From Calditrichota bacterium (GTDB lineage: Bacteria > CLD3), in assembly GCA_008501735.1 (NCBI GenBank), contig QQUF01000036.1:1-61891 (forward strand): DNA of 61,891 nucleotides, in the 5' to 3' direction. Made by a program: the position numbers and the translations under genes. The notes below the pieces were generated by a model. That model saw only the letters and a list, made by a program, of their open reading frames with translations. It had not been told where the DNA came from and did no database searches. Positions within the stretch are counted from its first letter, which is position 1, and each line of letters begins with the position of its first letter. This document shows, piece after piece, positions 30,459-48,361 of this stretch.

Positions 30459-30464
30459 CTCTAA

Positions 30465-31394
30465 ATGAATATCGAAAAAGAACTAAAAAAATTCTTTCAA
30501 GGACAAATTCTTAAAAATGAACCTCTAAAAAATCATACTTCTCTTCAAGTTGGTGGTCCAGCGGATTTTTATCTTTATCCAAAAGATGAAAAAGACCTAA
30601 GCAACCTCATCAAATTTATAAATCAAAACAAAGTCCATCATTTCTTTATTGGAACAGGAAGAAATATTTTAATCTCTGATATTGGGATTCGTGGAATAGT
30701 AATTGATTTGAGTAAGACATTTGACAAAATAGAAATTTTAAATCTTGACGAAATTATCTTAAAAGTTGGCTCTGGAGTAACTCTTAAAGAATTGATTGAT
30801 TTTTGCATCGAAAATTCTTTTGGCGGAATGGAAAAAATGTCTGGAATTCCTTCTTCGGTTGGTGGAGCTTACAGAATGAATGCTGGAGCTTTTGGAACAG
30901 AAATAGCTGATTGCACAATTTCTGTAACATTAATGGATAAGTTTGGAGAAGTAAAGACATACCCAAACGAAGAATTAGGATTTGAGTATAGAAAATCTAA
31001 AATTCAGGATATTGTCCTTTACGGAACTTTACAATTTCAAAAATCTAACAGAGTAGAGTTAGAAGAGATCAAAAAAGAAATCCTCAAAAAACGCAATTCA
31101 AAGCAACCTTTAGAATATCCGTCAGCAGGAAGTTTTTTCAAAAAAACAAAAGATGGAATTCCAGCTGGAATTTTAATAGAAAAATGTGGATTAAAAGGCA
31201 AAACAATTGGTGGAGCTTTGGTGACAGAAAAACACGCTAATTTTATTGTTAATGCTGGAAATGCAAAAGCATCTGAAATCTTGGCACTTCTTAGGTTTGT
31301 CCAAACGGAAGTTTACAAAAACTTTGGTGTAAAATTAGAAAACGAAGTAAAATTAATAGGTTTTTCTGATGGAGAACTCGCAGAACCCTACTAA
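30465..31394 (+). CDS. murB: UDP-N-acetylenolpyruvoylglucosamine reductase MurB
   Basis: FAD-dependent reductase making UDP-MurNAc, 309 residues. NHTSLQVGGPADFYLYP opens the FAD domain, IGTGRNILISD is the FAD pyrophosphate loop, and MSGIPSSVGGAYRMNAGAFG is the conserved flavin site. PSAGSFFK carries the catalytic Ser, and the C-terminus has KHANFIVNAGNAKA and the LENEV acid. The compact form without the E. coli insertion indicates a type II MurB. Its 3' end overlaps ftsQ by 26 bases. Confidence 0.97.
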   Translation: MNIEKELKKFFQGQILKNEPLKNHTSLQVGGPADFYLYPKDEKDLSNLIKFINQNKVHHFFIGTGRNILISDIGIRGIVIDLSKTFDKIEILNLDEIILKVGSGVTLKELIDFCIENSFGGMEKMSGIPSSVGGAYRMNAGAFGTEIADCTISVTLMDKFGEVKTYPNEELGFEYRKSKIQDIVLYGTLQFQKSNRVELEEIKKEILKKRNSKQPLEYPSAGSFFKKTKDGIPAGILIEKCGLKGKTIGGALVTEKHANFIVNAGNAKASEILALLRFVQTEVYKNFGVKLENEVKLIGFSDGELAEPY

Positions 31395-32157
31395 AAAATA
31401 TCGTCGACCTTCTGTTAGAATTGCTAGAGTTATAGTTTTTTTAGCGATAATCGGGATTCCTTTTTATTTTGCTTGGGATTGGGTGAAAGAGGGGGAAGTT
31501 TTTGTAGTTGAAAATGTTGTCATTCGTGGGAATAATATTTTTTCTGAGCAGGAACTTTTAGACTCTTTACAGATTCCTATTGGTGAAAAGATGTTTGCAA
31601 TTAACACCGATGATTTTAGAGAGAAGTTGGAAATAAACCCATTTTTTGAAGAAGTTAGTGTTGTCAGAAGTCTTCCCAAAACGATAACAATTATATTACA
31701 AGAAAAGAGTTTTTTAGCTTGGTTTATTAATAAAAATACAAAATACTTAATCGATAAAAATGGTGATGTGTTGCCACAAATTAAGCCAAATCAGATACTT
31801 AACCTTCCTGTAATAAGTTTTGTAAATACTTTACAAAATAATTCTAAAATTGATAGCCTTTCACAAAATAATTATTTACTTTTAGCTGTAAAGTTTTTAC
31901 AAAACGTTAATTTGCGAAAAGATTTCGTTACTGATATTATTTCAGAAGTAAAAATTATTTCAAATGAAAAAATTGAAGTTTACTTAACATCTTCTGATGT
32001 AAAAGTAATCTTTGGAAAAGATGATTTTCAAGAAAAGTTAGAATATCTTAGTTCCTTTCTTAAAGAAATTGATTCGAAAGATAAATTAGATTCTCTTGAA
32101 ATCATTGATTTAAGCTATAAAAATCAAATTATCACTAAAAAATCGCCCCAAAAATAA
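31369..32157 (+). CDS. ftsQ: Cell division protein FtsQ/DivIB
   Basis: 262 residues with a short basic cytoplasmic tail, one transmembrane helix (about 18-37) and a periplasmic POTRA domain (VVENVVIRGNNIFSEQELL, about 47-110). NPFFEEVSVVRSLPKTITI and the following beta-rich domain are typical of FtsQ. It bridges early and late divisome proteins. The start lies inside murB in another frame. Identity also rests on its place between murB and ftsA. Confidence 0.9.
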   Translation: MENSQNPTKKYRRPSVRIARVIVFLAIIGIPFYFAWDWVKEGEVFVVENVVIRGNNIFSEQELLDSLQIPIGEKMFAINTDDFREKLEINPFFEEVSVVRSLPKTITIILQEKSFLAWFINKNTKYLIDKNGDVLPQIKPNQILNLPVISFVNTLQNNSKIDSLSQNNYLLLAVKFLQNVNLRKDFVTDIISEVKIISNEKIEVYLTSSDVKVIFGKDDFQEKLEYLSSFLKEIDSKDKLDSLEIIDLSYKNQIITKKSPQK

Positions 32158-32169
32158 AAAGCTAATTTT

Positions 32170-33531
32170 ATGAAAAAAAATACAATAGTTGGATTAGACA
32201 TAGGAACAACAAAGATTTGTGCAATTGTTGCCGAAGTTTATCCTGAAGGTCCTCCCAAAATCATTGGAATTGGTCATTCTGTTTCAGAAGGCTTACATCA
32301 AGGTGTAGTTGTAAATTTAGAAGCGACAATCAAATCAATTACAAGTGCTGTTAATGAAGCTCAAAATATGGCAGCAGTTGCTGTTACTGATGTTTACGTC
32401 GGAATCGCAGGAGAGCATATTAAAAGTACAAATTCGCCAGGTGTAATTGGTATTTCCAATCCTGATTTAGAAATTAAGAAAAAAGACATAGAAAGAGTTA
32501 TTGAGGCAGCAAGGAATTCTGTTAAACTTCCAAACGACAGGCAAATTATCCATTCCATTCCGCAAACATTTGTAGTTGACGAGCAAACAGGAATTAAAGA
32601 CCCAACAGGAATGTACGGTTCAAGACTCGAAGCAGATGTTCATTTTGTTACAGGAGCAATTACTTACGTTAAAAATCTAGGCAGAAGCGTTGAAAGAGCA
32701 GGTTTGAACGTTAAAGGGTTTGTTCTTGAACCTTTAGCTTCTAGTAATTCAATTCTAACAGATGACGAAAAGAAACTCGGCGTTGTCATTTTGGATATTG
32801 GAGGAGGAACTTCCGATATTGCTATTTTTACAGAAGGTTCGATTAGATTTACAAAAGCAGTTGCCTTAGCAGGTGAAATAGTTACTCAGGACATTTCAAA
32901 AGTGTTAGGTATTTCTTACGACCAAGCTGAATTGGCAAAAAGAAAATTTGGTGTTGCCGACAAGAGGTTAATTACTGAAGATGAATTAATTGAAATTCCA
33001 GGGTTAAACAACAGACCGACAAAAACAATTAGTCGTTACGAACTTGCAATGATTATTGAATCAAGAATGAGAGAGTTATTTGAATTTGCTTTAGAGTCAA
33101 TGAAAACATCATCTTATTTCGATTACTTGCCAGCTGGATTAGTTCTAACTGGAGGAGGTTCTTTACTTTCTGGAATCGAAAATATTGCAAAAGAAATTTT
33201 CAATCTTGATGTTGTAATTGGCAAACCACAAAAGTTTACTGGGCTTTCAGACGTTGCTAAAAGTCCAATTTACGCTACTGGAGTGGGTTTAGTTCTTTAT
33301 GGAAACAGTTTTGAGCAGATCAATCAAAGTTTCAAAAATTTTGATGTTTCTAAAACTCAAGAAACTGTTAATACATCAAAAACAAATACTTCAGCAAAGA
33401 ATCAAAATCTAAATTCAGTCCAAAATAAAGAACCCCAAAAAACTGAAACCAAAAAAGATGACCCAATAGATAAAATGAAAATAGAAGACTTTAAAACTAG
33501 AATGGTAAAATGGTTTCAAGAGTTCTTCTAA
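32170..33531 (+). CDS. ftsA: Cell division protein FtsA
   Basis: Actin-fold membrane tether for FtsZ, 453 residues. Phosphate-1 motif GLDIGTTKICAIV at the N-terminus, the 1C-domain region (GIAGEHIKS and SPGVIGI), VVILDIGGGTSDIAIF (phosphate-2) and VLTGGGSLLSGIE (adenosine motif) are all present. A Ser/Thr/Lys/Asn-rich linker ends in an amphipathic C-terminal helix (FKTRMVKWFQEFF) that would bind the inner membrane. One base separates it from the methyltransferase gene. Confidence 0.97.
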   Translation: MKKNTIVGLDIGTTKICAIVAEVYPEGPPKIIGIGHSVSEGLHQGVVVNLEATIKSITSAVNEAQNMAAVAVTDVYVGIAGEHIKSTNSPGVIGISNPDLEIKKKDIERVIEAARNSVKLPNDRQIIHSIPQTFVVDEQTGIKDPTGMYGSRLEADVHFVTGAITYVKNLGRSVERAGLNVKGFVLEPLASSNSILTDDEKKLGVVILDIGGGTSDIAIFTEGSIRFTKAVALAGEIVTQDISKVLGISYDQAELAKRKFGVADKRLITEDELIEIPGLNNRPTKTISRYELAMIIESRMRELFEFALESMKTSSYFDYLPAGLVLTGGGSLLSGIENIAKEIFNLDVVIGKPQKFTGLSDVAKSPIYATGVGLVLYGNSFEQINQSFKNFDVSKTQETVNTSKTNTSAKNQNLNSVQNKEPQKTETKKDDPIDKMKIEDFKTRMVKWFQEFF

Positions 33532-33532
33532 A

Positions 33533-34108
33533 ATGTTATGGGATTTTAAAGCGAAGTTTTATGATAAGGGAAGAAATTCATTTTTCTTGTCTTGGATTTT
33601 AAGAAAAGAAAATGAGGTTGTAACACAATTATTACCAAGTAATATCTTGGAAGAGAGAAGAATATTAGATGTCGGAACAGGAACAGGTAATATCCCTTCT
33701 TTGTTAATAAACCCTCAAATAACTATCGGAATCGATATTTCTTATGGGATGTTGCAAAGGGCAAAAAGTAATCATAGAAATTTATTTGTAATTAATTGTA
33801 ATATTGTAAAAATTCCTCTTGCAATTGGCGTAATTGATGTTGTATTTTGTGTGGGAGTTTTGGAGTATTTTTCTGATTTTAAAACCCTTTTTTCTGAAAT
33901 CAGTCAAGTCCTCCAAAATGACGGACTTTTTTATCTAACCTATTCCCAAAAAAATCTACCAAATTTTTTAAGGAATATTTTAGGTGAAAAGATTCATTTT
34001 GTTCAAGAAAATGAAATAATCCAAGAACTACAAAGCTATGGATTTCAATTAGTGAAAAAAAATAAAACATTCATTCAAACTCAATTACTTTTTAGACGGG
34101 GAATTTAA
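33533..34108 (+). CDS. Class I SAM-dependent methyltransferase inserted between ftsA and ftsZ
   Basis: 191 residues. Motif I RILDVGTGTGNIPSLL, the acidic end of strand 2 in IGIDISYGML, and a motif IV-like DVVFCVGVLEYF give a normal AdoMet-binding Rossmann fold of the UbiE/BioC type. The gene is squeezed between ftsA (1 base) and ftsZ (0 bases), so it must be co-expressed with them. Substrate is unknown: a small molecule, lipid or protein are all possible, and a division-related role is only inferred from position. Confidence 0.85.
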   Translation: MLWDFKAKFYDKGRNSFFLSWILRKENEVVTQLLPSNILEERRILDVGTGTGNIPSLLINPQITIGIDISYGMLQRAKSNHRNLFVINCNIVKIPLAIGVIDVVFCVGVLEYFSDFKTLFSEISQVLQNDGLFYLTYSQKNLPNFLRNILGEKIHFVQENEIIQELQSYGFQLVKKNKTFIQTQLLFRRGI

Positions 34109-35365
34109 ATGGCAATTACTATCGACAACAATGCCTTAACACCTTCACAAGGTGCTGTAATCAAAGTAATCGGTGTTGGCGGTGCAGGTGGAAACGCTGT
34201 CAATACAATGATTGACTCAGGTCTTTCTGGAGTAGAATTTATTGCTGCAAACACAGACATTCAAGCTCTTAACGTGAATAAGGCTGATGTCCATGTTCAA
34301 ATCGGAAAAAAAGAAACTGAAGGTCTTGGAGCTGGAGCTGACCCAAGTGTTGGAGAAACCTCAGTCCTTGAAGATTCTGATTTGATAAAGGAAGCAATCG
34401 GAAAACCTCATATGGTTTTTGTTACAGCTGGAATGGGAGGCGGAACTGGAACTGGAGCTGCTCCTGTTGTCGCGAAAATGGCAATGGAAACAAATGCACT
34501 TACAGTAGGAATTGTAACTAAGCCTTTCAAATTTGAAGGCAATAGAAGAATGAAATCTGCTGAAGAAGGTATTGCTAAATTACGAAATAATGTTGATACT
34601 TTAATTGTTATTCCTAATCAGAAATTGATGGAAATTAACAAAGGTTCACTTACTCTTCAAAATGCTTTTACTATGGCTGATAATGTTCTACTTCAAGCGA
34701 CTAAAGGTATTTCTGACATCATCAAAGGAACTGGTTTAATTAATGTGGATTTTGCAGATGTGAAATCAATTATGACAACTTCTGGCGATGCGATAATGGG
34801 AATTGGTGAAGCTTCAGGAGAAGGAAGAGCAACTCAAGCTGCTGATAGTGCAATTTCTAGTCCTCTACTTGAAGAGTATTCTTTGCAAGGTGCAAAAGGT
34901 ATTCTTATTAACATTACGGCAAGTTCAAATATTTTAATGTCAGAAATTGATGAAGCTACAGAATATATTCGTGCAAAAACTCAAACTGACGATGCAAATG
35001 TAATTTTTGGTGTAGTTCTTGATGAATCTTTAGAAGAAAAAATTCAAATCACTGTTATTGCTACTGGTTTTAATAAAGAAGAAGAAATTGTTGACGAAAT
35101 TCCAAGTGATGTAAATACTCAACATTTTGACGACGTTCCTGTTCAGCAACCTAAAAGAGAACGAATTGTGCACAAATTACACGGCGATTCAGTAAATCCT
35201 AATCACGATTCAAGAATGGGTGGGATTTCCGCGAAATATGAAGAAAAGGGCGAAAACTCTTTCAATCCAGAAACTTATAGAACTGGAATTAATGCCGTTC
35301 CTAATTTAGGAACTGACAAAGGAAATCTGAGTCAACCGACTTTCTTAAGAAGAAAATACAATTAA
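34109..35365 (+). CDS. ftsZ: Cell division GTPase FtsZ
   Basis: Tubulin-like GTPase forming the Z-ring, 418 residues. GVGGAGGNAVNTMI near the N-terminus, the tubulin signature MGGGTGTGAAPVVA, the NTDIQAL segment and the T7-loop region VDFADVKSIM are all present. The GTPase core ends about residue 320, followed by a charged linker. The usual short FtsA-binding C-terminal peptide (DIPxFLRxR-like) may be represented by PTFLRRKYN at the very end. It is followed by a terminator shared with the convergent signalling operon. Confidence 0.98.
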   Translation: MAITIDNNALTPSQGAVIKVIGVGGAGGNAVNTMIDSGLSGVEFIAANTDIQALNVNKADVHVQIGKKETEGLGAGADPSVGETSVLEDSDLIKEAIGKPHMVFVTAGMGGGTGTGAAPVVAKMAMETNALTVGIVTKPFKFEGNRRMKSAEEGIAKLRNNVDTLIVIPNQKLMEINKGSLTLQNAFTMADNVLLQATKGISDIIKGTGLINVDFADVKSIMTTSGDAIMGIGEASGEGRATQAADSAISSPLLEEYSLQGAKGILINITASSNILMSEIDEATEYIRAKTQTDDANVIFGVVLDESLEEKIQITVIATGFNKEEEIVDEIPSDVNTQHFDDVPVQQPKRERIVHKLHGDSVNPNHDSRMGGISAKYEEKGENSFNPETYRTGINAVPNLGTDKGNLSQPTFLRRKYN

Positions 35366-35371
35366 AACTTT

Positions 35372-35399
35372 AAAGGCTCGGATAATTCGAGCCTTTTTT
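35372..35399 (+). terminator. Terminator after ftsZ (possibly bidirectional)
   Basis: Arms AAAGGCTCG / CGAGCCTTT with a 7-base loop and a six-T run on the plus strand. It sits between convergent ftsZ and the CheR-like gene; the minus-strand side has a weaker T-rich tail. Confidence 0.85.
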
Positions 35400-36219
35400 A
35401 TTTCTTTTGAAAAATGTTTGTCCCTTTTTTGAGTTCAGACATTTTTAATTCTTTTACAAAATTCTTGTAATCACTTCCTGGTTCTAAACACAGAATTCCA
35501 TTTGGATTTAAACTTTCCTGAAATACTGAAATAGCTCTTTCTCTCAAGTCTTCATTAAAATTCTGTAAAATATTCAGGCAAACTATCAAATCAGTTTCGC
35601 TAAAAACCCCGTCGGTTGTTAAGTTATGGTCAGCAAAAACAATATTTCTTAATGAATGTTTGATTACTGCCGAATTGTTCAAAACAGTATAGTATTTAGA
35701 GAATTTTTCTTTGCCACCTGAAAGCCTATAAAAGTCTTCAAATTCATTGATTATTTCTAAAGAATAAATTCCTTCACGTGCCTTAGAAAGAACTAAGTCA
35801 TTAAAGTCCGTTGCATAAATTTGGCTTCTTTTAAGTAAATCTTCTTCTGCTAACAAAATCGAAAAGGTATAAACATTCTCGCCTGTTGAACAACCAACAA
35901 ACCAAATTTTGAAAAAAGTCTTCTCTTTTAAAATTGGATTCACAATTTTTTTGAAATTTTGATAAAAAATTGGATTTGGGAAATTATTGCTAGGGTGGCT
36001 TGTTAGGTCAGCTAAGACAATTTCAAAGAAATCTTTGTCGTAAAGAATTTTGTGCTGCATTTCACTAAAAGATTTGAAGTTAGAATTTTTGAGCCTTGCT
36101 TGAAATTTATCTTGAAGCAGTTCAGGCAAAAATTCCCGTAGATCGTAACCATATTTATGGAAAATTGCATCAATTAGGAGTTTGATTTCAATATCAATAT
36201 TTTTTATCGTTTTGTGCAT
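35398..36219 (-). CDS. Divergent CheR-like methyltransferase
   Basis: 273 residues with the CheR layout: a small N-terminal helical domain (about 1-70), then an AdoMet fold with VGCSTGENVYTFSILL equivalent to the CheR motif CSTGEEPYSLAM, ATDFNDLVLSKAREGIY (the acid after strand 2 plus the typical CheR helix) and DLIVCLNILQNFN in place of DLIxCRNVLIYF. The CheR FFRD segment near the domain junction is changed to NFPNP, losing the Arg normally involved in binding. It may bind AdoMet without methylating a chemoreceptor; no MCP or CheB gene is nearby. Last gene of the five-gene signalling operon, 34 bases after the hybrid kinase gene. Confidence 0.75.
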   Translation of the reverse strand: MHKTIKNIDIEIKLLIDAIFHKYGYDLREFLPELLQDKFQARLKNSNFKSFSEMQHKILYDKDFFEIVLADLTSHPSNNFPNPIFYQNFKKIVNPILKEKTFFKIWFVGCSTGENVYTFSILLAEEDLLKRSQIYATDFNDLVLSKAREGIYSLEIINEFEDFYRLSGGKEKFSKYYTVLNNSAVIKHSLRNIVFADHNLTTDGVFSETDLIVCLNILQNFNEDLRERAISVFQESLNPNGILCLEPGSDYKNFVKELKMSELKKGTNIFQKK

Positions 36220-36253: not shown

Positions 36254-39200
36254 TTATTGGTAAAGCCACACTCTTAATTGGGCTAGTAATTTGTCTTCAT
36301 CTAAAGGTTTGGATAAGTAATCGTTTGCTCCAGCATTTAGGCACTTTTTTCTGTCTCCTTGCATAGCTTTTGCTGTTAGAGCAATTATGGGTAAATTTTT
36401 GAATTTTTCAATATTGCGAATTTCGTGCATCGCTTCAAAACCGTTCATATTTGGCATCATTATGTCCATCAAAATTAAATCTATCTCATCAGGATTCAGA
36501 CTAAGTGCTTTTAGACATTCTTTACCATCGTGAGCAGTTGTAACTCTCAAATCGTGTTCTTGTAAAATACTAGAAGTCGCAAGAATGTTTCTCATATCAT
36601 CGTCAACTAAAAGAATGTGCTTACCTTTAATGACATTAGTTTCTTCATTCAATTTGTTTACAATCTTTCTCTTTGCCTCTGAAAGGTTCTCTTCCTTTCT
36701 GTGCAGGAGTAAAGAAGAAATATTAAGTAATTGTTCAGAAGTTATTGTTACTTTAACAGGAAAATTATTCTCGTAAATTCTGATTTCTTCTTCATCTAAG
36801 TCTGCTTGCGAATTAAAAATTATTGGAACTTCTAATCGTTCAACTGATTGTTTCAGAAATCCCAAGAAGTCGATTCCTGACATATCCTCCAAATGATTGT
36901 CCAAAATTATACAATCAAAATTTTCGACATTTATAATTTTTACAAAATCTACTGAATTGGCAACTGTTGCAATCCTCAAATCGTCGCCTTGAACTAATTC
37001 TGCGATTCGATTTTGTGACTCTTTACTTTTTGAAGCGATGAGTAAGCTCTTATTTTCTTTATTAAAGAACTCAAGAACTTTGTCAAAAATCTCGTTTATT
37101 CCTACTGAATCAACAGGTTTTGTTATACAACCTATTGCACCGCTTTTAATTGCTTCAAAGTTTGAAATTTTGTTTGAAAGCATAAAAACAGGAATGTGCC
37201 TTGTTTTGTTGTTTTCCTTGAGCCTAAACAAAACGCTTTTCCCGTTAATTTCAGGTAAGTCTTGAAGCAAAATTATTGCACTCGGTTTGTAGAAATCAGC
37301 CATTTGTAGGCAAGTATTTCCATTGTCCGCAAGAAGAACTTTCATTCCTTTGTTGTGTGCTTTATCCGAAAGAATCTTTGTTGTAACTGGGTCTGTTTCG
37401 ATTATTAAAACAACTTTATCTTTTTCTGAAATTACTTTTCTATCATCAATTATCGCTTCTATTGTTTTTGGTGGGGCAATATTTATTTTTGAGATTTTCT
37501 CACCAATTGAATTTGGGGCATTCTTGGTTTTAATCTCAATTTTGTTTTCAGGTAACGATTCATTGTCTTCAACTTTCAAAATTTCAGGGATATAAAGCGT
37601 AAAAGTGCTTCCACTTCCAATTTCACTTACCAAATTAATTTCGCCTTGAAGCAATTTGGCAAATTCTTTGGAAATTGAAAGACCTAAACCAGTGCCTCCG
37701 TATTTTCTGCTTGTGCTTCCATCTTCTTGTTGGAATGCGTCAAAGATCATTTTTTGTTTTTCTTTAGCAATACCTTTTCCAGTATCAATTACGGAAAATC
37801 CAATTGTTTCTTCAAGATTCAAAATCCTTGATTCAAAGTTCTTATAAGGTTTGTGAATTTTGAAGGTAATCTGACCGCCAACAGGAGTGAATTTCATTGC
37901 GTTGGAAATGAAATTTTTGATAATTTGTTCAACTCTTTGTCTGTCGGTGTATAATTCTTGGTTTAGTTCTTCGTCAATTTCAATTGCAAAATTTATACCT
38001 TTGTCTTCGACTACGTGTTTGAAGTTCGTTTTGATATAATCTGAAAATTCAACTAATTTTACGTTTTCGACGTGAATTTCTATTTTGCCAGCTTCGACTT
38101 TTGAAAGGTCTAATACTTCATTAATTAAGTTTAATAAATCATTTCCAGCAGAGTAAATCGTTTTTGCAAATTCCATTTGTTTGATTGTTAAGTTGCCTTT
38201 TTTGTTATTAGAAAGCAATTTTGATAGAATCAGAATGCTGTTCAATGGAGTTCGCAATTCGTGAGACATATTTGCAAGAAACTCTGATTTATATTTACTA
38301 CTCATTTCAAGAGCTTTTGCTTTTTCCTCAAGTTCTGCTTGAGCAAATTTAAGTTCTTGATTTTTAATTTTTATGTTCTCTTTTTGTTTCTCTAAAGCAC
38401 GAGTTTTCTCTTCTAAAGCAAGATTGATCTCACGCAATTCCTCTTGGTTTGATTGAAGCCTTTCTTCTGATTCTTTCAAAATTCTTGCTTGTTCTTCTAA
38501 TTCGTCATTCGTAACTCTAAGGACTTCTTGTTGGGATTGCAGTTTGTGTGCTTGTTGCTGAGTTTTTCCTAAAAGTTCTGCCATTTGGTCGCGAGATTTT
38601 GCAGAGTAGAACGAAATCCCGATGTTTTCAACAACTAAGTCTAAAAATTGTTTTTTAACCTCAGTTATTTCTTCAAAAGAAGCTAATTCAATGATTCCAA
38701 GTAGCTCATCTTCGTGTAAAAATGGAACAACAATAATATTTAGTGGTGAACCTTCACCTATTCCAGTATTAATTTTTAAAAAATTGTATGGAACATTTGA
38801 GATAGAAAGAGTTTTTTTGTCGGCAGCAGATTGTCCAACCAAACCTTCACCAAACTGAAAGATTGGAGGGTTTTCTTTATCAAAATTAAATGAAAAACTG
38901 TTTATCATTTTTAAATGTTCTTCATCACGAATGTAAATTGCTCCAATTGGACATCCTAAATATCTTGTCAAAAAATCTAACACATTCTTTGCAAGTGTAG
39001 CAATTTCAGGATTTCCACGAAGTTTATTATTTAGTTCAGCTTGTCCTTCGTTGAGCCAATTCTGTTTTAATAATTTTTTTGATGATGTAGTTAGATTTTT
39101 TTGAAGTTGAACCAAAGCAGAGCCTAATGAATCTTTTGAACTTCGGATTTCAATTTGTTTATCAAAATTACCGCTTCCAATTAAAGTTGCCATTTCCGCT

Positions 39201-39985
39201 AAATTTCTGTTAGACTCAACTAATGTTGAAAGAACGTTTGCTAAGTCAGCAATCTCGTCATTTGACTTAACTTTAAATTCAACATCGTTATCACCTTCTG
39301 CAAATTTCTTTGCTTGTCTTTGCATTTCAGTAAGAGGATTTGTTATACTTCGCGAAAGGAATGCACTAACAAGCATTGCAAGTAATAAAATCCCAATTCC
39401 ATAAATTGAAAGCATCATAAATCTTGATTTTAAAGCATCATTTAGAGTTACAATTGAGTAGTCTAACTGCAAAACTCCAACAACAGATTTATCTTCTCCT
39501 TTAATAGGTACAAAAGCTGAAATCCATTCACCGTAATCGTCTTGGTATCTTGGAGTAATTACAGGAATATTTTCTTGAAAAGCTTTTTGGAGTAGGGGAG
39601 TCATTTTATATTTATGACCAATGAAGGGTTTATTGTTTGTCATTACAGTAAATTTTGCAAAATCAGGACTACCAGAAGGAGTTAAAATGTAGATTTCAGT
39701 TGAAAGATTATTTTCAGCTTTAACCTTCCTTAAGGTGCTTCTAAGTTGTAAAAATTCTTGTGAAGCTGGATTCTGGGAACTTTCTACAATTTTAATTTTA
39801 CTTGGTTGAATCGCTAATGTTGTTGTTTTTGCAATTCCAAGAAGTTCTTTTCCAAGACTTGACTCCAATTCTGCAGAAGTGAGTTTATAGTCAATTACAA
39901 GCACTATAATTATGCTTAAGAACAACAGCGAAAAAATTATGTAACTAATTTTTTGAGAAAGACTTGAAAACCAACTTCGATTCAT
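36254..39985 (-). CDS. Membrane hybrid histidine kinase with HAMP, GAF and three receiver domains
   Basis: 1,243 residues. TM1 about 13-31, an extracytoplasmic single-Cache-like sensor about 32-188, TM2 about 189-210, HAMP about 211-263, a second HAMP-like linker, GAF about 320-460, a long coiled coil 465-565, HisKA with the phospho-acceptor in MSHELRTPLNS (His575), HATPase with DTGKGI and GTGLGLSI (to about 803). Then three receiver domains follow: REC1 (about 856-970) appears to lack the phospho-Asp at the usual position (ILLQDLPEING), REC2 (about 985-1095) has ILDNHLEDMSG, and REC3 (about 1120-1240) is canonical with LMDIMMPNMNG (Asp1174) and a final Lys in SKP. The REC3 closely resembles the receiver of the next upstream gene, implying duplication. 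Fourth gene of the 35.4-45.3 kb operon. Confidence 0.93.
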   Translation of the reverse strand: MNRSWFSSLSQKISYIIFSLLFLSIIIVLVIDYKLTSAELESSLGKELLGIAKTTTLAIQPSKIKIVESSQNPASQEFLQLRSTLRKVKAENNLSTEIYILTPSGSPDFAKFTVMTNNKPFIGHKYKMTPLLQKAFQENIPVITPRYQDDYGEWISAFVPIKGEDKSVVGVLQLDYSIVTLNDALKSRFMMLSIYGIGILLLAMLVSAFLSRSITNPLTEMQRQAKKFAEGDNDVEFKVKSNDEIADLANVLSTLVESNRNLAEMATLIGSGNFDKQIEIRSSKDSLGSALVQLQKNLTTSSKKLLKQNWLNEGQAELNNKLRGNPEIATLAKNVLDFLTRYLGCPIGAIYIRDEEHLKMINSFSFNFDKENPPIFQFGEGLVGQSAADKKTLSISNVPYNFLKINTGIGEGSPLNIIVVPFLHEDELLGIIELASFEEITEVKKQFLDLVVENIGISFYSAKSRDQMAELLGKTQQQAHKLQSQQEVLRVTNDELEEQARILKESEERLQSNQEELREINLALEEKTRALEKQKENIKIKNQELKFAQAELEEKAKALEMSSKYKSEFLANMSHELRTPLNSILILSKLLSNNKKGNLTIKQMEFAKTIYSAGNDLLNLINEVLDLSKVEAGKIEIHVENVKLVEFSDYIKTNFKHVVEDKGINFAIEIDEELNQELYTDRQRVEQIIKNFISNAMKFTPVGGQITFKIHKPYKNFESRILNLEETIGFSVIDTGKGIAKEKQKMIFDAFQQEDGSTSRKYGGTGLGLSISKEFAKLLQGEINLVSEIGSGSTFTLYIPEILKVEDNESLPENKIEIKTKNAPNSIGEKISKINIAPPKTIEAIIDDRKVISEKDKVVLIIETDPVTTKILSDKAHNKGMKVLLADNGNTCLQMADFYKPSAIILLQDLPEINGKSVLFRLKENNKTRHIPVFMLSNKISNFEAIKSGAIGCITKPVDSVGINEIFDKVLEFFNKENKSLLIASKSKESQNRIAELVQGDDLRIATVANSVDFVKIINVENFDCIILDNHLEDMSGIDFLGFLKQSVERLEVPIIFNSQADLDEEEIRIYENNFPVKVTITSEQLLNISSLLLHRKEENLSEAKRKIVNKLNEETNVIKGKHILLVDDDMRNILATSSILQEHDLRVTTAHDGKECLKALSLNPDEIDLILMDIMMPNMNGFEAMHEIRNIEKFKNLPIIALTAKAMQGDRKKCLNAGANDYLSKPLDEDKLLAQLRVWLYQ

Positions 39986-40062: not shown

Positions 40063-41166
40063 CTATTTAATCCATTTTTTGATTAACGCAATTAACTCAT
40101 CTGGGTCAATCGGTTTGCTTAAATAATCGTTTGCACCCGAATCAATACACTTTTGTCTGTCTTCTGCCATTGATTTTGCTGTTAACGCAATAATAGGTAA
40201 TTTCTGAAATCGTTGCATTTTTCTAATTTCAGTCATTGCTTCATATCCGTCCATTTCAGGCATCATTATGTCCATCAGAATCATATCGAAGTTTTCTTCT
40301 TCTTTGAGTTTTTCTAAGCACTCAATACCACTTTTGGCAATTTCGGTTTCAATTTCTTCCTCTTCTAAAATGCTAACAGTTGAAAAAAGATTTAGAGGAT
40401 CATCATCAACAAGTAGAATTTTTTTGCCCTCCAAAGATATTTCAATTCCTTCTAAATTCGGGAGAAGAGTTTCAACTTGAACTTTTGGTTCAGATTGAGT
40501 TTCTACTATTTTAGGCTTTTCAATTTCTATTTTGTCAACCTTAGGAACTTCAACTTTTGTCTCAATAATTTCTAAAGTTTCTTCAATTTTGGGTTCTTCA
40601 ACTTTAGGTTCATTAATTGGTTCAATCGAAAGCTTTTCAATTTTAGGTTCTTCAACTTTTATCTCAGGTTTAGGTTCTTCAATTGGTTCAAGAATAATCT
40701 TTTCAGGTTTAGGCTCTTCAACTTTAATTTCAATTTTAGGCTCTTCAACTTTTAATTCAATTGTTGAGTCTTTTTCAATTTCAGTTTCTTCCACTGTTGG
40801 TGGAGGAGTTTCAATTTTGATTTCTTTCGTCATTTCTGCACTCAAATCAACAATTTTTGATTTGGACTCTTCCTTTATAACAGGAGTTTCTACTGCATTT
40901 TCAACTTTTGGAGGCTCATTAGCTTTTGGTTGAGTTTTAACAGGCTCGATTTTAGGAAAATTAGATTTTTCCTCAAGTTGTGAAACTGTTTTTTTAACTT
41001 CTACAGTCTTTTTCTCATCGGGTGTAGTTGTAGTTGGCGTTTTTTTTGTTTTTTGGTTTTTAGGTAGTTTAATTTCATTTTTTTGCGATGCTTTTTTCTT
41101 CTGGGAAAGAACTAAAATTATTATTACAGCACAAACTACGCCTAAGAAAATTGTTGAATTATCCAT
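40063..41166 (-). CDS. Membrane-anchored response regulator with E/K/P-rich stalk
   Basis: 367 residues of unusual design: an N-terminal hydrophobic helix (about 5-20) with Lys-rich flank; a ~210-residue low-complexity linker dominated by Glu, Lys, Pro, Ile and Val, with repeated EEPKIE-type units (about 125-215); then a canonical receiver domain (about 245-367) with LLVDDDPLN acids, phospho-Asp299 in LMDIMMPEMDG, LTAKSM and YLSKP. There is no output domain after the receiver. The receiver tail (LPIIALTAKSMAEDRQKC) is nearly the same as in REC3 of the adjacent kinase. It probably receives phosphate at the inner face of the membrane. Third gene of the five-gene operon. Confidence 0.88.
   Translation of the reverse strand: MDNSTIFLGVVCAVIIILVLSQKKKASQKNEIKLPKNQKTKKTPTTTTPDEKKTVEVKKTVSQLEEKSNFPKIEPVKTQPKANEPPKVENAVETPVIKEESKSKIVDLSAEMTKEIKIETPPPTVEETEIEKDSTIELKVEEPKIEIKVEEPKPEKIILEPIEEPKPEIKVEEPKIEKLSIEPINEPKVEEPKIEETLEIIETKVEVPKVDKIEIEKPKIVETQSEPKVQVETLLPNLEGIEISLEGKKILLVDDDPLNLFSTVSILEEEEIETEIAKSGIECLEKLKEEENFDMILMDIMMPEMDGYEAMTEIRKMQRFQKLPIIALTAKSMAEDRQKCIDSGANDYLSKPIDPDELIALIKKWIK
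40570..40770 (-). repeat. Low-complexity E/K/P repeat tract inside the stalk gene
   Basis: On the plus strand, GGTTCTTCAA/GGCTCTTCAA followed by CTTTT recurs at irregular short spacing. On the coding strand this encodes repeated EEPKIE/EEPKPE units. Both register and length are likely to vary between related strains. Confidence 0.7.
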
Positions 41167-41194: not shown

Positions 41195-43288
41195 TTAATA
41201 GCCATCGTTCTTTCCGAGAACGTAACCTTTTTCATAACCTTTAGTATTTCCTTCTTCAAAGCCGTCTTTGAAGCCTTTTTCATAACCAATTTTTTTACCG
41301 TTTAAAATTCCTTTGGTTTTACCGTCTGCCAAACCTTCTTTGAATCCAATTTTCTCACCTTCCTTGAATCCACGTTCATTTGCTTCTTCAAAGGAAACAG
41401 ACTCGATATTTTGGATTAAGTCTGTTAGTTCAGATTTAATCATTTCATTGGCTTTTTTGACAAAAGGATAAAGTTTGTTGTGGTCAAAATTATTTGGAAC
41501 GATTTCAAAAACTTTGACTACGTTTTCAAAGTTTTCATTTAAAAGTAGTTGTTCAATTAGTTCTTCAAAATATGAGTCTAATTTTTCAAAATAATTTTCG
41601 ATGAGCCAAGTTTCAGATTCCAATACTTGAATAATTGGTTCATAAATACCCATTTGAGATTTTTCTTTCCAATCATTTAAATATGTTTCAAGCAATTTTT
41701 CCTTGAGTTGAACAGGTTTTTCTTTATTTGTTAATTCTAATAAGATTGAATTGAACTCTTCAATTTTGTTCGATTTTGAAAAGTATGGAAAAATATTTAG
41801 TATGTACTCCAATACTTCATCTTTAAAATCAGTTAAAATCCAATTTTGGGTATTTATTGCTTTTTGAAAGGAATCAAAATTTTGGTTTGCTAATTCTTTC
41901 TCCCATTTAATAAAGTAGTAATTTAAAAGTCTTTTTTGCGATTCAGGATTGTTTGGTTCAATCGCTAAAAGTTTTTCTAAAACTCCAAAATTTGATGGCT
42001 CTTTTTGGGAATATTCTAATAAAAAGTTAAGAAAATCCTTTTTCACTTTTTCAGGTTTCAAGGAATAAGCTTTTTCATAAAAATTCAAAATTCGTTCATC
42101 GCTACCAAATTTTCCTTTTTGGTAAACTATTGCGAGTAGTTGAAATGCTTCAAAATTATCAGGATTTTGTTGTACGACTTTAAGGAAGTTTTTCTTTGCT
42201 TCTTGGTAGTCTTCATTTTCAAATTGAATTTTTCCCAAATCCAAATACATCGAAATTAATTTTTGGAATTTTACAAGTTCACTTTTTAAAGCATCTTTTT
42301 CAAACTCAGATTCCGCCCATTTGTTAAATAATGGAATTCTTAAATTGAATTCATTTTTAGACTGTTTCTTGATGATATTTAATTTGGTCAAGTTGTCTAA
42401 GATTGTTTGAGCTTTAATCTCCATAGCTTTTGGAAGAATTTTATCAAGTTCTTCTTTTAAGGTTTTGAAATCTGTTTTTCCACCACCTAAAATCTGATCT
42501 GCTATAATAAAAAGGAAAGTTTTCTCAGAAGCATTCAACTCGTTGTGAAACCAAAATAATTCGTCTTTGAGACCCTTGATTACAGCAATCAAATTTTTAT
42601 CAACTTCATTTTTGGAAATTGAATTAATTCCCTTAATCTTTGAGTGATTAAAAAGGTACTCACCTATTTTTTCAGAAATAAAAGGATGTCCTTCGGTTAA
42701 TGAAAAAATGCGATTTATAGCATCTGGAGTGAATTTTGGGTTCGAAAAAGTTTTTAAAAATTTGCTTACATCTTCAAAATTTAAGTATTGCAAATGAACG
42801 AATTCAGAATTCTTTCTAAAAGAAGGATTGAGCGAGTTTAAAGAATCTTCGGAAAAAGAAGAGCTTAAAATAAATTTTATTTTTGGGTTTTTACTCGCCA
42901 ATTCTGTCAACTCGTTAAAGAGTTTTTCTTCGTTCTGTGGAATGAAAAAATTATCTAAAAACAAAGTTAATTTTTCGTCTAATCCACTAAAAGAATACTC
43001 TTTGTGAGTTAATTTTATAACATCAGAAATTTCTTTAAGTAATTCTGCTGTTCTGAAATCATTTTTAAAATCAAAATCGAAGTAAAAAGGTTTGATTCCT
43101 TTTTGTGGATTTTCGACTAAGTTTTTTAGAAGAAAAGTTTTACCGCATTTATTTTCACCAAATAAAACTAGAGTATTGTTTTCAGTCTCTTTAGTAAGAA
43201 AATTTGAGATTTTATTTTTTACCTCAATCTGACTTTTAAACAATTCAATTTCATTTGTTTGAGTTTCGAGAGTTTCAAATTCTTGCAT
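41195..43288 (-). CDS. P-loop NTPase / TPR protein with C-terminal Gly-X3 array (paralogue A)
   Basis: 697 residues: STAND/ORC-like NTPase with Walker A GENKCGKT (44-51), Walker B-like LFLDNF (about 107-112) and sensor-like LSSSF. A winged-helix-like segment follows (about 245-335: LTKLNIIKKQSKNEFNLRI), then TPR units (FENEDYQEAKKNFLKVVQQN, NFEAFQLLAIVYQKGKFG) and a helical region. The last ~60 residues are 15 uninterrupted Gly-X-X-X tetrads, with aromatic or charged fill (IGYEKGFKDGFEEGNTKGYE). The Gly periodicity of four resembles the deca-GX3 motif of Yae1/Lto1 and the N-terminal repeats of FliH. Second gene of the operon and clear paralogue of the gene upstream. No signal peptide; its function is not recognised. 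Confidence 0.82.
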   Translation of the reverse strand: MQEFETLETQTNEIELFKSQIEVKNKISNFLTKETENNTLVLFGENKCGKTFLLKNLVENPQKGIKPFYFDFDFKNDFRTAELLKEISDVIKLTHKEYSFSGLDEKLTLFLDNFFIPQNEEKLFNELTELASKNPKIKFILSSSFSEDSLNSLNPSFRKNSEFVHLQYLNFEDVSKFLKTFSNPKFTPDAINRIFSLTEGHPFISEKIGEYLFNHSKIKGINSISKNEVDKNLIAVIKGLKDELFWFHNELNASEKTFLFIIADQILGGGKTDFKTLKEELDKILPKAMEIKAQTILDNLTKLNIIKKQSKNEFNLRIPLFNKWAESEFEKDALKSELVKFQKLISMYLDLGKIQFENEDYQEAKKNFLKVVQQNPDNFEAFQLLAIVYQKGKFGSDERILNFYEKAYSLKPEKVKKDFLNFLLEYSQKEPSNFGVLEKLLAIEPNNPESQKRLLNYYFIKWEKELANQNFDSFQKAINTQNWILTDFKDEVLEYILNIFPYFSKSNKIEEFNSILLELTNKEKPVQLKEKLLETYLNDWKEKSQMGIYEPIIQVLESETWLIENYFEKLDSYFEELIEQLLLNENFENVVKVFEIVPNNFDHNKLYPFVKKANEMIKSELTDLIQNIESVSFEEANERGFKEGEKIGFKEGLADGKTKGILNGKKIGYEKGFKDGFEEGNTKGYEKGYVLGKNDGY

Positions 43289-43310: not shown

Positions 43311-45332
43311 TTAATGTCTTCTACTTTCGCTACGTCCTTGTTGGAAACCTTTTTTGTATCCGATGTCCATTCCTTTTGCCTTGCCTTTTTGCAAACCTTC
43401 GTTAAAGCCAGTTTGGTAGCCTTCTTTAACACCAATTTCGTAGCCTTCGCGTTCACCCAAATCCAAGCCTTTTGTAAGACCTTTTTGCTTCCCACTTTCA
43501 AAGCCTTTTTTATAACCTTTTTCTAATCCTTTGGCTTTACGTTTTTCAATTAAGTCTTTGATTTTATTATTTGAATTTTCGTTTGCAGCTTTTACAAATG
43601 GGTAAAAATTGTATGGGCTTAGAAATTCAGGAACAACGTCATACATTTTTATTATTAAATCGAACTTTTCAGATTTTAAAGAAGCGTCAAAGTAATCATT
43701 GAGCAGGTCATTAATTTCATCTTGGAAGTTTTCTTTAATCCAATCAGTTTCATTGACTGTTTTTGTAAAATTATCAAAGTGGAATGAGGAAAACTCTGTT
43801 TGCCAATTTGAAGAGTAGGAGTTGTAAAGTTGTTTTTGTGTTTGTAAGTCATTTGAATCTGTTGACAATATTTTTTCAAGAATTGGAATTAGTGAGTTAG
43901 AGTCAGATTTTTCATTCGAATTTATTTTTGATAAAAAATTATTTAACTCAGGCTTGAAGTTTTTTAAAATCCAATTCGATTCATCTAACTTTTTAGAAAG
44001 AGTTGTTGAAATTTCTTCAAAAGATTTTGGTTCTAAATTTTTAAATATCATTTCCAAAACTGATTTTTGGATAGTTTTGTCATTTGGGAAGTCTTGTGCA
44101 ATTTTTTCAAGTTTTTGGAATCTGACTTTGTCAGATAAAGAATTTATGAATTCTAGATAAATTTCTTTTGCTTGATGAGGGTTGCTTTTGTAAAGACTTT
44201 CAAAATAGTAAAGTTTGATTTCAGGTAAAGTGTTAGGATAAAACTTTAAAGCATTTACTAAATTAATTTTAGCTTCAAAATTTCCTGATTGCCTGTCCAA
44301 AACTTTTTTGAAATTTTCAACTGAATCTATGTAGTCTTCATTTTCAAATTGGATTAAACCAAGTTCCAAATGAATTTTTGTGAGTTTGAATTCTTTTTCA
44401 AAGTCTTTCTGAATATCCACACGAGTAATTTCTGAAAGTAGGAATTGGTTTAAAAATGGAATTGTAAAATTCAAATAATTTTCATTTTCTTCAACTAAAC
44501 CTAATGTTTGTAGTTCTGAAATTGCTTCTAAAACTTGGTTAGAGGTTAAGTTACCATTTAAAGCAGTAACTTCATCGCAAACTTTTTCGACAAGTTTGGT
44601 TTTGAGTTCAGTTGAAACAAGGAAATAAAGAACAGCTTTTTTTGTTGTATCAAATCTTTTCCAAATCCAATTCAAGGCACTTGAGTCATTTTCCAAAAAC
44701 TTGAGCAATTCTTTAGTTTGAATTTCTTTTGCAGAAGTTTTGGTAAAGTATTCAGCTAAGAGTTTTGTATAATAAATATTTCCATTAGTAAGTGAGTAAA
44801 GGAAGTTAGAATCAAGTTTTGGATAATTATCTTTGGTAAACTCAATTGTTTCATTTTCGGTAAAAAAGCCGAGATTCAAAACTTCATAATTTTCTAAATC
44901 TTCTAAAATAAAATTACCGAAACTGTTAAAAGGATTTAGGCTAATTACTAATTTCAAATTAGATTTATTCTCTATTTTTACAAAGTCTAAGAACTCAAAG
45001 AATTCATTCAAATTTTGGTTCTTAAGAGTCAAGCAGTCTAAAAATAGAAATAGGTCTTTTTTAAGTTCCTGTAATAACTTTGGAAGGGAAGTCTCACTTT
45101 TATGAAGAAAAGTTTTGTTGTCTAAAAGATTAACAATAATTGGAGAGTTTAACTTTGAATCTTTAAAGTTTGCAAAAGAGGTATTACTTAAAGCCAAAGA
45201 TGAGTTTCTTAAAAATGAAGTTTTACCAGAGAACTTATCACCTAAAACGAATAATATTTTCTTGGAATCATTAGCTATAAAATTCTCAAAAACTTTTTTG
45301 GCGTTTTGTCGAATTTGGAATTTATTGTTCAT
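43311..45332 (-). CDS. P-loop NTPase / TPR protein with C-terminal Gly-X3 array (paralogue B)
   Basis: 673 residues with the same plan as the next gene: P-loop GDKFSGKT (31-38), LFLFLDCLTL Walker B-like strand, LVISLNPF sensor-like strand, winged-helix-like segment ending LGLVEENENYLNFTI, TPR units starting FENEDYIDSVENFKKVLDRQ, and a longer helical region. The C-terminus has 17 consecutive Gly-X-X-X tetrads, for example KGYKKGFESGKQKGLTKGLD. The shared FENEDY TPR entry and common order show duplication. First gene of the five-gene operon; its upstream 169 bases hold the probable promoter. A frame-shadow in the Gly-X3 region gives no separate protein. Confidence 0.82.
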   Translation of the reverse strand: MNNKFQIRQNAKKVFENFIANDSKKILFVLGDKFSGKTSFLRNSSLALSNTSFANFKDSKLNSPIIVNLLDNKTFLHKSETSLPKLLQELKKDLFLFLDCLTLKNQNLNEFFEFLDFVKIENKSNLKLVISLNPFNSFGNFILEDLENYEVLNLGFFTENETIEFTKDNYPKLDSNFLYSLTNGNIYYTKLLAEYFTKTSAKEIQTKELLKFLENDSSALNWIWKRFDTTKKAVLYFLVSTELKTKLVEKVCDEVTALNGNLTSNQVLEAISELQTLGLVEENENYLNFTIPFLNQFLLSEITRVDIQKDFEKEFKLTKIHLELGLIQFENEDYIDSVENFKKVLDRQSGNFEAKINLVNALKFYPNTLPEIKLYYFESLYKSNPHQAKEIYLEFINSLSDKVRFQKLEKIAQDFPNDKTIQKSVLEMIFKNLEPKSFEEISTTLSKKLDESNWILKNFKPELNNFLSKINSNEKSDSNSLIPILEKILSTDSNDLQTQKQLYNSYSSNWQTEFSSFHFDNFTKTVNETDWIKENFQDEINDLLNDYFDASLKSEKFDLIIKMYDVVPEFLSPYNFYPFVKAANENSNNKIKDLIEKRKAKGLEKGYKKGFESGKQKGLTKGLDLGEREGYEIGVKEGYQTGFNEGLQKGKAKGMDIGYKKGFQQGRSESRRH

Positions 45333-45501: not shown

Positions 45502-48204
45502 TTAACGTAAGAGTACCATTTTTTTTACTTCAATATTTTTATTTGACTCTAATTTGTAAAAATAGATTCCATTTGAAACTAAATTATCATTTTTATCTGT
45601 ACCGTTCCAAGTTATTGAGTTGAAATTATATTCTAAATTATATTCTTTAATTTTTTGACCCAAAGAATTAAAAATTGTTAGTTTTCCAATTTCACCTTTT
45701 TCTAAACTAAATTCAATTTTTGTGGAAGGATTAAATGGATTTGGGTAGTTTTGATTTAAACTAAAGGTTGAGACCTTTGGTTTGAATTTCTCATCTTGGG
45801 CAGAAACTAAGTTATCCATTTTGTAAGCATAAACTGCTCCTGCTTTCAAACCACCAAAATCATGAGAAGGAGAACCCACAACAAGTAGTTCATCAGAAAT
45901 AGAAACTGAAGAACCGAATAAGTCATTCTTCTGCCCATCAAGAGCAATTAATTTTTCTTGAAAGTTCCAATTTGCTCCATTGAGTTTATAAATGTAAACA
46001 GAACCAGTTTGAAAATCGTTTTCATCATCTTTAGGTGAACCAATGACAAGAATATTATTATGGACAGCAATCGAAGTACCAAATTCGTCTAATGCTTGAG
46101 AATCGAAAGCAAACAATTTTTCTTGAAGGTTCCAATTTGATCCGTCAAAATGATATATATAAACAGCTCCACAATCTAAACCTTGACAAAACTCATCGTC
46201 TTTATTTGCACTAACAAAAGCAAAATTACTTGAAATTGCTACTGAAGCACCATAATTATCCGAATTATTAATATTGATTGGAGTTAAATCTTTTTGTAAT
46301 TCCCAAGAATTTATATTTTTCTTATAAATAGCTGCTCCACTAATATTATTTGAAACTCCAAAAATTGCATTTTTGCTATCAATGTCAATTTTAGTTTTAT
46401 TTGATGAAGTAATATTCCAAATAAAATCATCTTCATTAAAAGAATTCCATTGTCCATTTGTCCAATTATAAGAAACTATCTTTGAACTAATTCCAAAGTC
46501 AGTGTTACATAGTGCAATTATATCAGAATTATTTATAAATGAAGAATTAAGACGATTGAAAATTGGATAATTTACACCTGGAATTTCAAATAAAAATTGA
46601 TAACTACCATTTACTAGCTCATATAAATTATAACCATTTAACAAAAAATTTTCAGATAAATAGCCACCAAAAGAATTTATAGTTTTAGAAATATTATTGT
46701 TTTCAATCTGATAAATTTCTTTTCCTGTTGAGAATTTGCTTCCGAATGCATAAACATTTTCTCCAAGTCTTTGGTTTTCTTCATTTCCATTAATTTTGTG
46801 GAAGTCATTAGTTTTAGATTCACCTAAGAGAGTAATATGTAAGTCTAATCTATCTTCAATTTCAAATTTTACAAAATAACTTAAATCTCCAATAACACTT
46901 GGTATTACAAAAATCGATATTGTGTCTGTTTGAAAAAATTCAATACTTTGAGGATAGTTAGAAGTTAAATCGGTACTAGAAAAATCAATATCAAGAATTT
47001 CCAAAGAGTCAAGAAATAAATTTGTAATTGGAATGTTAATTTGGCTTTGAGTAGAAAAGCTAAAATCTAAAGAATCAAAAACATCAGTTTGAATTTGAAA
47101 ACTTTGTAATTCGTAAAAATCGAATAAATGTACTGCTCCACATTTTGAATAATTAAAATCAGTTTTTGGTGCAGAAATAATGATTTTATCATCAGATAAT
47201 GCAACATCTTGAGCAAAATTGAAACCTTCAATAACATTCTTTCCAATAATTTTTCGAATTTGTTTCCAACCAGTTGGGGTTTTGTTTAAACAATAAACTG
47301 AACCAAGTTCACCCTCAGCAGATAAATCGTCTCTGAATCCAATTAAAATTTTATCATCATCAATTTTTAATGAAGAAGCATAAGAATTTTCATCAAATTT
47401 CTTTTTGATTTCTAAAATGCTTTGTTTCTTCCAAGCATTATTATTTCTTGCATAAAATGATATGATTTTTTCTGAATAAACAACTAATTCTCCATCGTCA
47501 AAATCTATAAGTTTCCCAAATTGCAAATTTTCATTTTCAGAATTCATTTCGATCTTAGTTTCAGGAATCCAAAAAGGTCCAATTTGATAAAATGGGTAAA
47601 CTCCATTTTCAGAGCTTACAATAATAAAGTCGCCTGCAATTGTTACACTTTGACCAAAGTATCTATTTGAATAACTCAAATTATAGTCGTAAGCCCAAAG
47701 TTGACCTTGAGAATTCCAAAAGTTTCCATTCCTTTTGTAAACGAAAGCTAATCCTTTATTTGTACCAAATGAATAATCTAAATAAGCTCCAATGACAAGC
47801 AATGAATCACTAATATCAATTGTTTTTCCGAAATAAGTACTTTCTAATTGAGTTAATTTTTTATTCAGACTCCAAACACTTCCAATCTTTCTAAATATAT
47901 AAACAGTTTTTTGGAGATAAAATCCAAGGGCTGCGTAATCATCAAATATTTTTACTGTAACGGGTTTGTTATTCCCTTGTAAATCGTTTGGTTCTAATTT
48001 TTGTACAAAAACATAATTTCCAGACAAGTTTTTCTCATAAATTTCAGCAAAACCTTCATTAGTTCCTACAATAAGTAGATTCTCAAATGAATCTATTGAA
48101 ATACCAAAATTTTCATTCATTTCTGAACCGTAAATAATAGTTTCTTCAGCAATTAAGTTTTCAATTGCAAAAAGTAAAATTAAAATTGAAATAAATCGTC
48201 GCAT
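45502..48204 (-). CDS. T9SS-exported FG-GAP repeat protein
   Basis: 900 residues from the ATG at 48204. The frame extends to a TTG at 48219, but the ATG has an ideal GGAGG 8 bases upstream. Signal peptide 1-18. Repeats of the type FGTSIAVHNNILVIGSPKDD-x-n-GSVYIYKLNG are FG-GAP (beta-propeller/integrin-like) units at both ends of the protein. The C-terminal ~85 residues are a T9SS type A sorting domain (QNYPNPFNPSTKI, then GIYFYKLES and terminal KKMVLLR). Likely anchored or released at the cell surface; ligand unknown. Confidence 0.92.
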   Translation of the reverse strand: MRRFISILILLFAIENLIAEETIIYGSEMNENFGISIDSFENLLIVGTNEGFAEIYEKNLSGNYVFVQKLEPNDLQGNNKPVTVKIFDDYAALGFYLQKTVYIFRKIGSVWSLNKKLTQLESTYFGKTIDISDSLLVIGAYLDYSFGTNKGLAFVYKRNGNFWNSQGQLWAYDYNLSYSNRYFGQSVTIAGDFIIVSSENGVYPFYQIGPFWIPETKIEMNSENENLQFGKLIDFDDGELVVYSEKIISFYARNNNAWKKQSILEIKKKFDENSYASSLKIDDDKILIGFRDDLSAEGELGSVYCLNKTPTGWKQIRKIIGKNVIEGFNFAQDVALSDDKIIISAPKTDFNYSKCGAVHLFDFYELQSFQIQTDVFDSLDFSFSTQSQINIPITNLFLDSLEILDIDFSSTDLTSNYPQSIEFFQTDTISIFVIPSVIGDLSYFVKFEIEDRLDLHITLLGESKTNDFHKINGNEENQRLGENVYAFGSKFSTGKEIYQIENNNISKTINSFGGYLSENFLLNGYNLYELVNGSYQFLFEIPGVNYPIFNRLNSSFINNSDIIALCNTDFGISSKIVSYNWTNGQWNSFNEDDFIWNITSSNKTKIDIDSKNAIFGVSNNISGAAIYKKNINSWELQKDLTPININNSDNYGASVAISSNFAFVSANKDDEFCQGLDCGAVYIYHFDGSNWNLQEKLFAFDSQALDEFGTSIAVHNNILVIGSPKDDENDFQTGSVYIYKLNGANWNFQEKLIALDGQKNDLFGSSVSISDELLVVGSPSHDFGGLKAGAVYAYKMDNLVSAQDEKFKPKVSTFSLNQNYPNPFNPSTKIEFSLEKGEIGKLTIFNSLGQKIKEYNLEYNFNSITWNGTDKNDNLVSNGIYFYKLESNKNIEVKKMVLLR

Positions 48205-48212
48205 AACTGTTA

Positions 48213-48217
48213 CCTCC
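48213..48217 (-). promoter_or_regulatory. Strong Shine-Dalgarno that fixes the start of the FG-GAP gene
   Basis: GGAGG on the minus strand, 8 bases before the ATG at 48204. It overlaps the upstream TTG that would otherwise open the frame, so the ATG is the true start. Confidence 0.75.
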
Positions 48218-48318
48218 AATGAATTTTATTTTAAAAATCCAACAATGATGCCAATTTATTTAAGTCAAACTATTTCAATGCTTTAAAAATTGTCACCTAG
48301 AAGGGGAAAAGTGTATAC

Positions 48319-48350
48319 AAAAAAGGGGAAAGTCATAAAACCTTCCCCTT
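48319..48350 (-). terminator. Terminator after the metalloprotease gene
   Basis: Arms AAGGGGAA / TTCCCCTT (48323-48350), with a T6 run on the minus strand, 12 bases after the metalloprotease stop codon. Confidence 0.85.
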
Positions 48351-48361
48351 AAAATCTAAAC

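Follow-up and report, generated by a model that had tools for sequence, protein, structure and literature searches.

Results

The window analysed here, a stretch of 61,891 nucleotides (contig QQUF01000036.1) from the genome assembly of a Calditrichota bacterium (GCA_008501735.1), carries on its minus strand a putative operon of five genes separated by gaps of 22, 28, 77 and 34 bp. The second gene (41195..43288, -) encodes a P-loop ATPase (AAA_14 by Pfam) with TPR repeats and a GxxxG-type tail, and the first (43311..45332, -) its paralogue, with 27% identity in the protein comparison. These are followed by the gene of a 367 aa protein made of a transmembrane helix, an E/K/P-rich linker and a receiver domain (40063..41166, -), hereafter TM-REC. 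The last two genes encode an RsbK-type hybrid histidine kinase (36254..39985, -) and, 34 bp downstream of it and in an RsbM-like position, a CheR-type methyltransferase (35398..36219, -; PF01739). A promoter scan returned 39 matches against 40.3 in shuffled sequences, and thus no excess. Convergent to the operon, at 29082-35365 (+), lie what we take to be genes for the cell wall and for division, ftsA and ftsZ among them. The gene at 34109-35365, presumably ftsZ, stands tail-to-tail with the 3' end of the kinase operon, from which it is separated by a terminator-like hairpin at 35372-35396. Elsewhere in the window are a 1258 aa protein with a nucleotide cyclase domain, an AAA ATPase domain and many TPRs (20187-23963, -) and, at 45502-53967, large, secreted-looking proteins ending in a YPNPFNPSTxI-type motif, which are presumably C-terminal sorting domains.

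The TM-REC reading frame is a real gene, with an AAGGA ribosome site 9-10 nt 5' of its ATG. Its N-terminal transmembrane helix spans residues ~4-21 (41104..41157, -) and is followed by a lysine-rich patch. The best 19-residue hydropathy windows begin at residues 3 and 4 (Kyte-Doolittle mean 2.48). This value was reached within the first 40 residues by 4 of 20,000 shuffled versions of the protein, which places the helix beyond chance for its composition; a value of 1.6 was reached by 346 of 20,000. With ~18 hydrophobic residues and no internal charge, the segment is long enough and uncharged, so that the membrane helix proposed in an earlier note on this DNA stands against the objection named there, that it might be too short or too charged. 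In a single-sequence AlphaFold model, which is informative for helix and coil only since its receiver part is poor (pLDDT below 50), residues 3-29 form a helix (pLDDT ~50-76) and the linker is entirely coil.

The linker comprises residues 23-244 (222 aa; 40435..41100, -), with 22% E, 19% K and 12% P over its whole length and 52% E+K+P in residues 31-240. Its EEPK motif derives from a 66-bp tandem repeat array (22 aa units; 40598..40748, -) present in 2.3 copies with 80% match. The E/K/P stalk with EEPK repeats is therefore as first described. A 133 aa reading frame antisense to the repeats (40532-40933, +) looks like a by-product of repeat composition rather than a gene. The receiver domain occupies residues 245-367 (40066..40434, -) and in the alignment keeps all five catalytic residues: D254, D255, D299, T329 and K351. 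The single Pfam domain in the protein is Response_reg (residues 250-362), which bears out the description of a C-terminal receiver without an output domain.

The charges around the helix are distributed unevenly: residues 1-5 contain no lysine or arginine, and residues 22-45 contain nine, against one aspartate or glutamate. According to the positive-inside rule the basic flank of a membrane helix lies on its cytosolic side. This pattern leads us to predict an N-out/C-in topology, in which the linker and the receiver are cytosolic, as is the kinase core. The stalk therefore makes better sense as a leash inside the cell than as a spacer on its surface. Its role in spanning a crowded surface, one of two suggestions made earlier, is disfavoured, and the other suggestion, that it sets the distance to the hybrid kinase, is plausible. 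Rough polymer estimates give the linker a root-mean-square reach of ~8-13 nm and a contour length of ~80 nm. In the kinase, 117 residues separate the end of the GAF domain from His575, which corresponds to at most 17.6 nm if they form one helix.

The reversed arrangement, in which the hydrophobic segment would be a signal anchor and the stalk would span the periplasm to display the receiver outside, has a precedent in TonB, whose periplasm-spanning stalk the E/K/P composition resembles. We regard it as very improbable: the basic residues all follow the helix, the sequence at C12 does not resemble a lipobox, and a complete phospho-receiver would be without a phosphodonor outside the cell. The layout also recalls ZipA, in which a short outside N-terminus, a transmembrane helix and a charged, proline-rich linker precede a cytosolic globular domain, and the operon does end tail-to-tail with ftsZ. 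A division-related tether is nonetheless scarcely to be expected. The globular domain of TM-REC is a receiver, Response_reg being the sole Pfam domain, and an FtsZ-binding domain is absent; the ftsZ gene and the operon are convergent with the terminator-like hairpin between them, and the corresponding 6.8-kb contig of the sister-family genome G001 carries no ftsZ.

The kinase has the order TM-sensor-TM-HAMP-GAF-helix-HisKA-HATPase-REC1-REC2-REC3, as assigned by Pfam, transmembrane prediction, the H-box and alignment. The Pfam order HAMP-GAF-HisKA-HATPase-REC is common to the window and Lysinibacillus kinases, the signalling helix being placed by position. The sensor gives a weak dCache_1 match below the cut-off and no CHASE3 match in Pfam, and CHASE3 is present in a related kinase (L034). 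Among the 76 related loci with a kinase in the reading frame set (out of 80 public-genome loci retrieved with the window kinase as query), 33 have CheR within 300 bases of it. Beyond CheR, a REC-PP2C regulator is found in one Lysinibacillus locus and a REC-GGDEF regulator in one Desulfobacteraceae locus. G001 has a related kinase and CheR on its 6.8-kb contig, which contains no TM-REC, the gene before the kinase being another hybrid kinase. By domain order and gene position, the window kinase and its CheR are the RsbK-RsbM arrangement as in Bacillus cereus.

A REC-PP2C (RsbY-like) gene is absent from the putative operon, and one is found elsewhere in the genome (C6). Together with the genome's four Hpt matches, of which three lie in reading frames of 108-126 aa, this would provide partners for a Spo0F-like relay, in which TM-REC would hand phosphoryl groups on to a histidine phosphotransfer protein. 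We consider such a relay improbable, as none of the Hpt matches nor the REC-PP2C gene lies in the window locus.

Two of the three receivers of the kinase are decayed. In REC1 a leucine replaces the phosphorylated aspartate, the sole case among 48 three-receiver kinases (47 D, 1 L; the set includes the window's own kinase and a few outside the RsbK type), and a threonine takes the second acidic position. REC2 keeps its aspartate and has the acidic pair replaced by S and K. REC3 and TM-REC both keep all five catalytic residues in the alignment; the receivers that apparently still work at this locus are therefore two, one built into the kinase and the other tethered. TM-REC is REC3-like and resembles neither REC1 nor REC2; it is therefore no simple substitute for the decayed domains.

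The closest receiver to that of TM-REC in its own genome is REC3 of the neighbouring kinase, at 54% identity (135 bits, the next 81). Identity is 58% to REC3 of the G001 kinase and 57% to a Desulfobacteraceae REC3 (L123/G021). We ranked 368 distinct receivers by similarity to TM-REC, in a collection retrieved with the kinase and the TM-REC receiver as queries, so that kinase receivers are over-represented in the ranking. Ranks 2-80 are taken by 79 matches, every one of them the terminal receiver of a reading frame of at least 429 aa. The HATPase G2 motif is present in 72 of these frames, and the other seven measure 429-1467 aa. The first free-standing receiver comes at rank 81, and the receivers of ordinary neighbouring response regulators are 34-42% identical. 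Whole-genome searches agree: among the 34, 24 and 21 matches listed, nearly all are large kinases. Judged by these similarities, the TM-REC receiver does belong with the terminal receivers of RsbK-type hybrid kinases. This kinship and the shared putative operon support the link to the adjacent hybrid kinase drawn in the earlier note.

That note had also called the TM-REC receiver and REC3 nearly identical and derived one from the other by local duplication. Near-identity, as stated, is ruled out by the 54% identity, with REC3s of other genomes outranking that of the neighbour. What stands is the terminal-receiver type; within that type, REC3s from other phyla are at least as close to TM-REC as the REC3 of its neighbour. 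A first tree contained long branches (REC1, REC2 and other rows from the same genome) and was rebuilt without these and without L057, L144 and L169. TM-REC does not group with REC3 of the adjacent kinase in the trees, although such a grouping is not rejected (p-AU 0.13 and 0.27). A recent local duplication of REC3 is thus neither supported nor rejected by the sequences.

The search for other proteins with an N-terminal transmembrane helix, a low-complexity linker and a C-terminal receiver beside hybrid kinases, which the earlier note had called for, found none in the genomes and loci described below. Full-length homologues of TM-REC were not found in nine genomes of the class and phylum, where a survey gave 339 matches at 1e-10; beyond those among them that were listed, 60 further stretches, chosen mostly for open frames of roughly 250-660 aa, were inspected. 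The transmembrane helix and linker alone matched, in the same nine genomes, only themselves and a low-complexity echo, interrupted by stops, in a different frame of that locus. In 19 stretches of the source genome (part of 57 matches there) none of 23 receiver reading frames has the transmembrane-linker-receiver architecture. From 399 distinct receiver reading frames across loci we took the 200 that are complete and lack an H-box motif; among those listed, the window protein is the only one with an N-terminal transmembrane helix and one C-terminal receiver without a kinase. Three others (L069, L080 and L082) have a transmembrane helix but are proteins of 652-761 aa with further regions, and are read as kinase-like by length. 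In 395 genomes each of the G009 and G021 phyla, none of the 24 and 21 matches listed extended beyond the receiver and its edge, with five candidates per genome scored at a cut-off of 1e-36, so that remote cases could be missed; for the 21 matches of the G021 phylum the reading frames were checked as well. One RsbK-type kinase (L286) has its last receiver in a separate overlapping frame of 146 aa; this may be a frameshift, a natural split being the alternative.

Soluble stand-alone receivers lie directly downstream of the kinase in seven of 105 related loci, with some genomes counted twice. In these loci (L019, L147, L156, L159, L161, L162 and L165) the stand-alone receiver is 45.8-50.9% identical to the terminal receiver of its own kinase and 37-50% identical to the receiver of TM-REC. 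Terminal-type receivers have therefore become free-standing next to such kinases at other loci as well. As a gene pair, a stand-alone receiver with an RsbK-type kinase is recurrent.

The two ATPase/TPR proteins keep the GxxxxGKT motif, and their C-terminal GxxxG-type repeats weakly match the FliH and Yae1 models; the structure model of the ATPase is poor (mean pLDDT 48). Outside the source genome their relatives amount to TPR-level matches, in five of the eight other genomes of the class, and both genes are missing, with TM-REC, from what was found in G001. These two proteins, rather than the kinase, could be the true partner of TM-REC. The kinase would then phosphorylate TM-REC as a tethered output regulator, and the phosphorylated receiver would bind a membrane-proximal target, most likely the co-encoded ATPases. 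This output role, the main rival to a kinase-facing one, is favoured by gene order (the ATPase genes precede that of TM-REC in the putative operon, with spacings of 22 and 28 bp), by the retained nucleotide-binding motif with the GxxxG-type tail, and by the shared pattern of occurrence. We consider it possible and on balance rather unlikely, given that the TM-REC receiver resembles kinase-terminal receivers and not those of output regulators.

Discussion

Our preferred reading is that TM-REC is a tethered, detached terminal-type receiver acting in trans on the adjacent kinase, as an acceptor, sink or brake; we give it a probability of about 0.55. The proposal starts from the anatomy of the protein, its charge pattern, the intact receiver residues, the kinship of the receiver, the gene neighbourhood and the decay of REC1 and REC2, and adds to these a predicted topology, a presumed partner, and putative phosphotransfer and inhibition. 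The soluble receivers beside related kinases and the trans-inhibition reported for Bacillus cereus also speak for it. Against it count the REC3-like character of the receiver when REC1 and REC2 are the decayed ones, the position of the gene upstream of the kinase, the G001 contig with kinase and CheR but no TM-REC, and the two ATPase genes in the putative operon. TM-REC would be anchored in the inner membrane, N-out and C-in, by its helix and would carry its receiver on a flexible cytosolic leash of ~220 residues. This receiver would accept phosphoryl groups from His575 of the kinase in competition with the built-in REC3. Alternatively or additionally, it may dock on the core and brake the kinase in trans. 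Methylation of the predicted signalling helix of the kinase by CheR might tune the contact between TM-REC and the kinase. The anchor would hold TM-REC in the membrane plane that it shares with the kinase, and the leash would let it reach the catalytic core, which may stand off the membrane on a helix of as much as ~17 nm. More tentatively, phosphoryl acceptance may have moved out of the hybrid kinase to a freed, anchored and repeat-leashed receiver that, as a tunable element acting in trans, sets the gain of the kinase.

In textbooks, response regulators are soluble messengers. A receiver held at the membrane next to a kinase with two decayed receivers would allow tests of how tether length and anchoring affect phosphotransfer specificity and kinase gain. 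It would also illustrate one route by which a domain can detach from a hybrid kinase and become independent. By title and abstract start, no membrane-anchored response regulator of this architecture was found in the open-access literature searched, and a trans-receiver of the membrane plane, if TM-REC is one, would be a kind of stand-alone receiver without a description found there. As far as sequence comparison goes, the parts of TM-REC are familiar and their combination is unusual, the anchored form being found, among the genomes and loci searched, only at this locus.

The closest known system is RsbK-RsbM-RsbY of Bacillus cereus, a hybrid kinase, a CheR-type methyltransferase and a REC-PP2C regulator, which resembles the window locus in the domain order of the kinase and in the adjacent CheR (PMC4574943). 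For that system it is reported that the kinase is inhibited by its own receiver, also when this is expressed in trans, and that methylation by RsbM strengthens the contact of the receiver with the S-helix (PMC4574943). The window kinase differs from RsbK in its three receivers, of which two are decayed, and in its sensor, which is weakly Cache-like instead of CHASE3. The window locus differs in being without a REC-PP2C gene and in having an additional, membrane-anchored receiver.

The seven soluble receivers share with TM-REC the free receiver without an output domain beside the same type of kinase. They differ in having neither anchor nor linker and in lying downstream of the kinase, whereas TM-REC lies upstream. 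These differences, with the 37-50% identity, suggest that the seven and TM-REC are probably separate detachments. Single-domain regulators of the CheY/Spo0F type likewise consist of one receiver with intact catalytic residues and no output domain. They are soluble, whereas TM-REC is membrane-anchored on a 222 aa linker. With N-out tethers of the ZipA type TM-REC is alike in layout, the receiver taking the place of the FtsZ-binding domain, and we claim no homology. Finally, the transmembrane phosphotransfer proteins predicted in plants (PMC12785465) are, like TM-REC, a case in which a phosphorelay module that is usually soluble is predicted to sit in the membrane, the module there being an HPt instead of a receiver.
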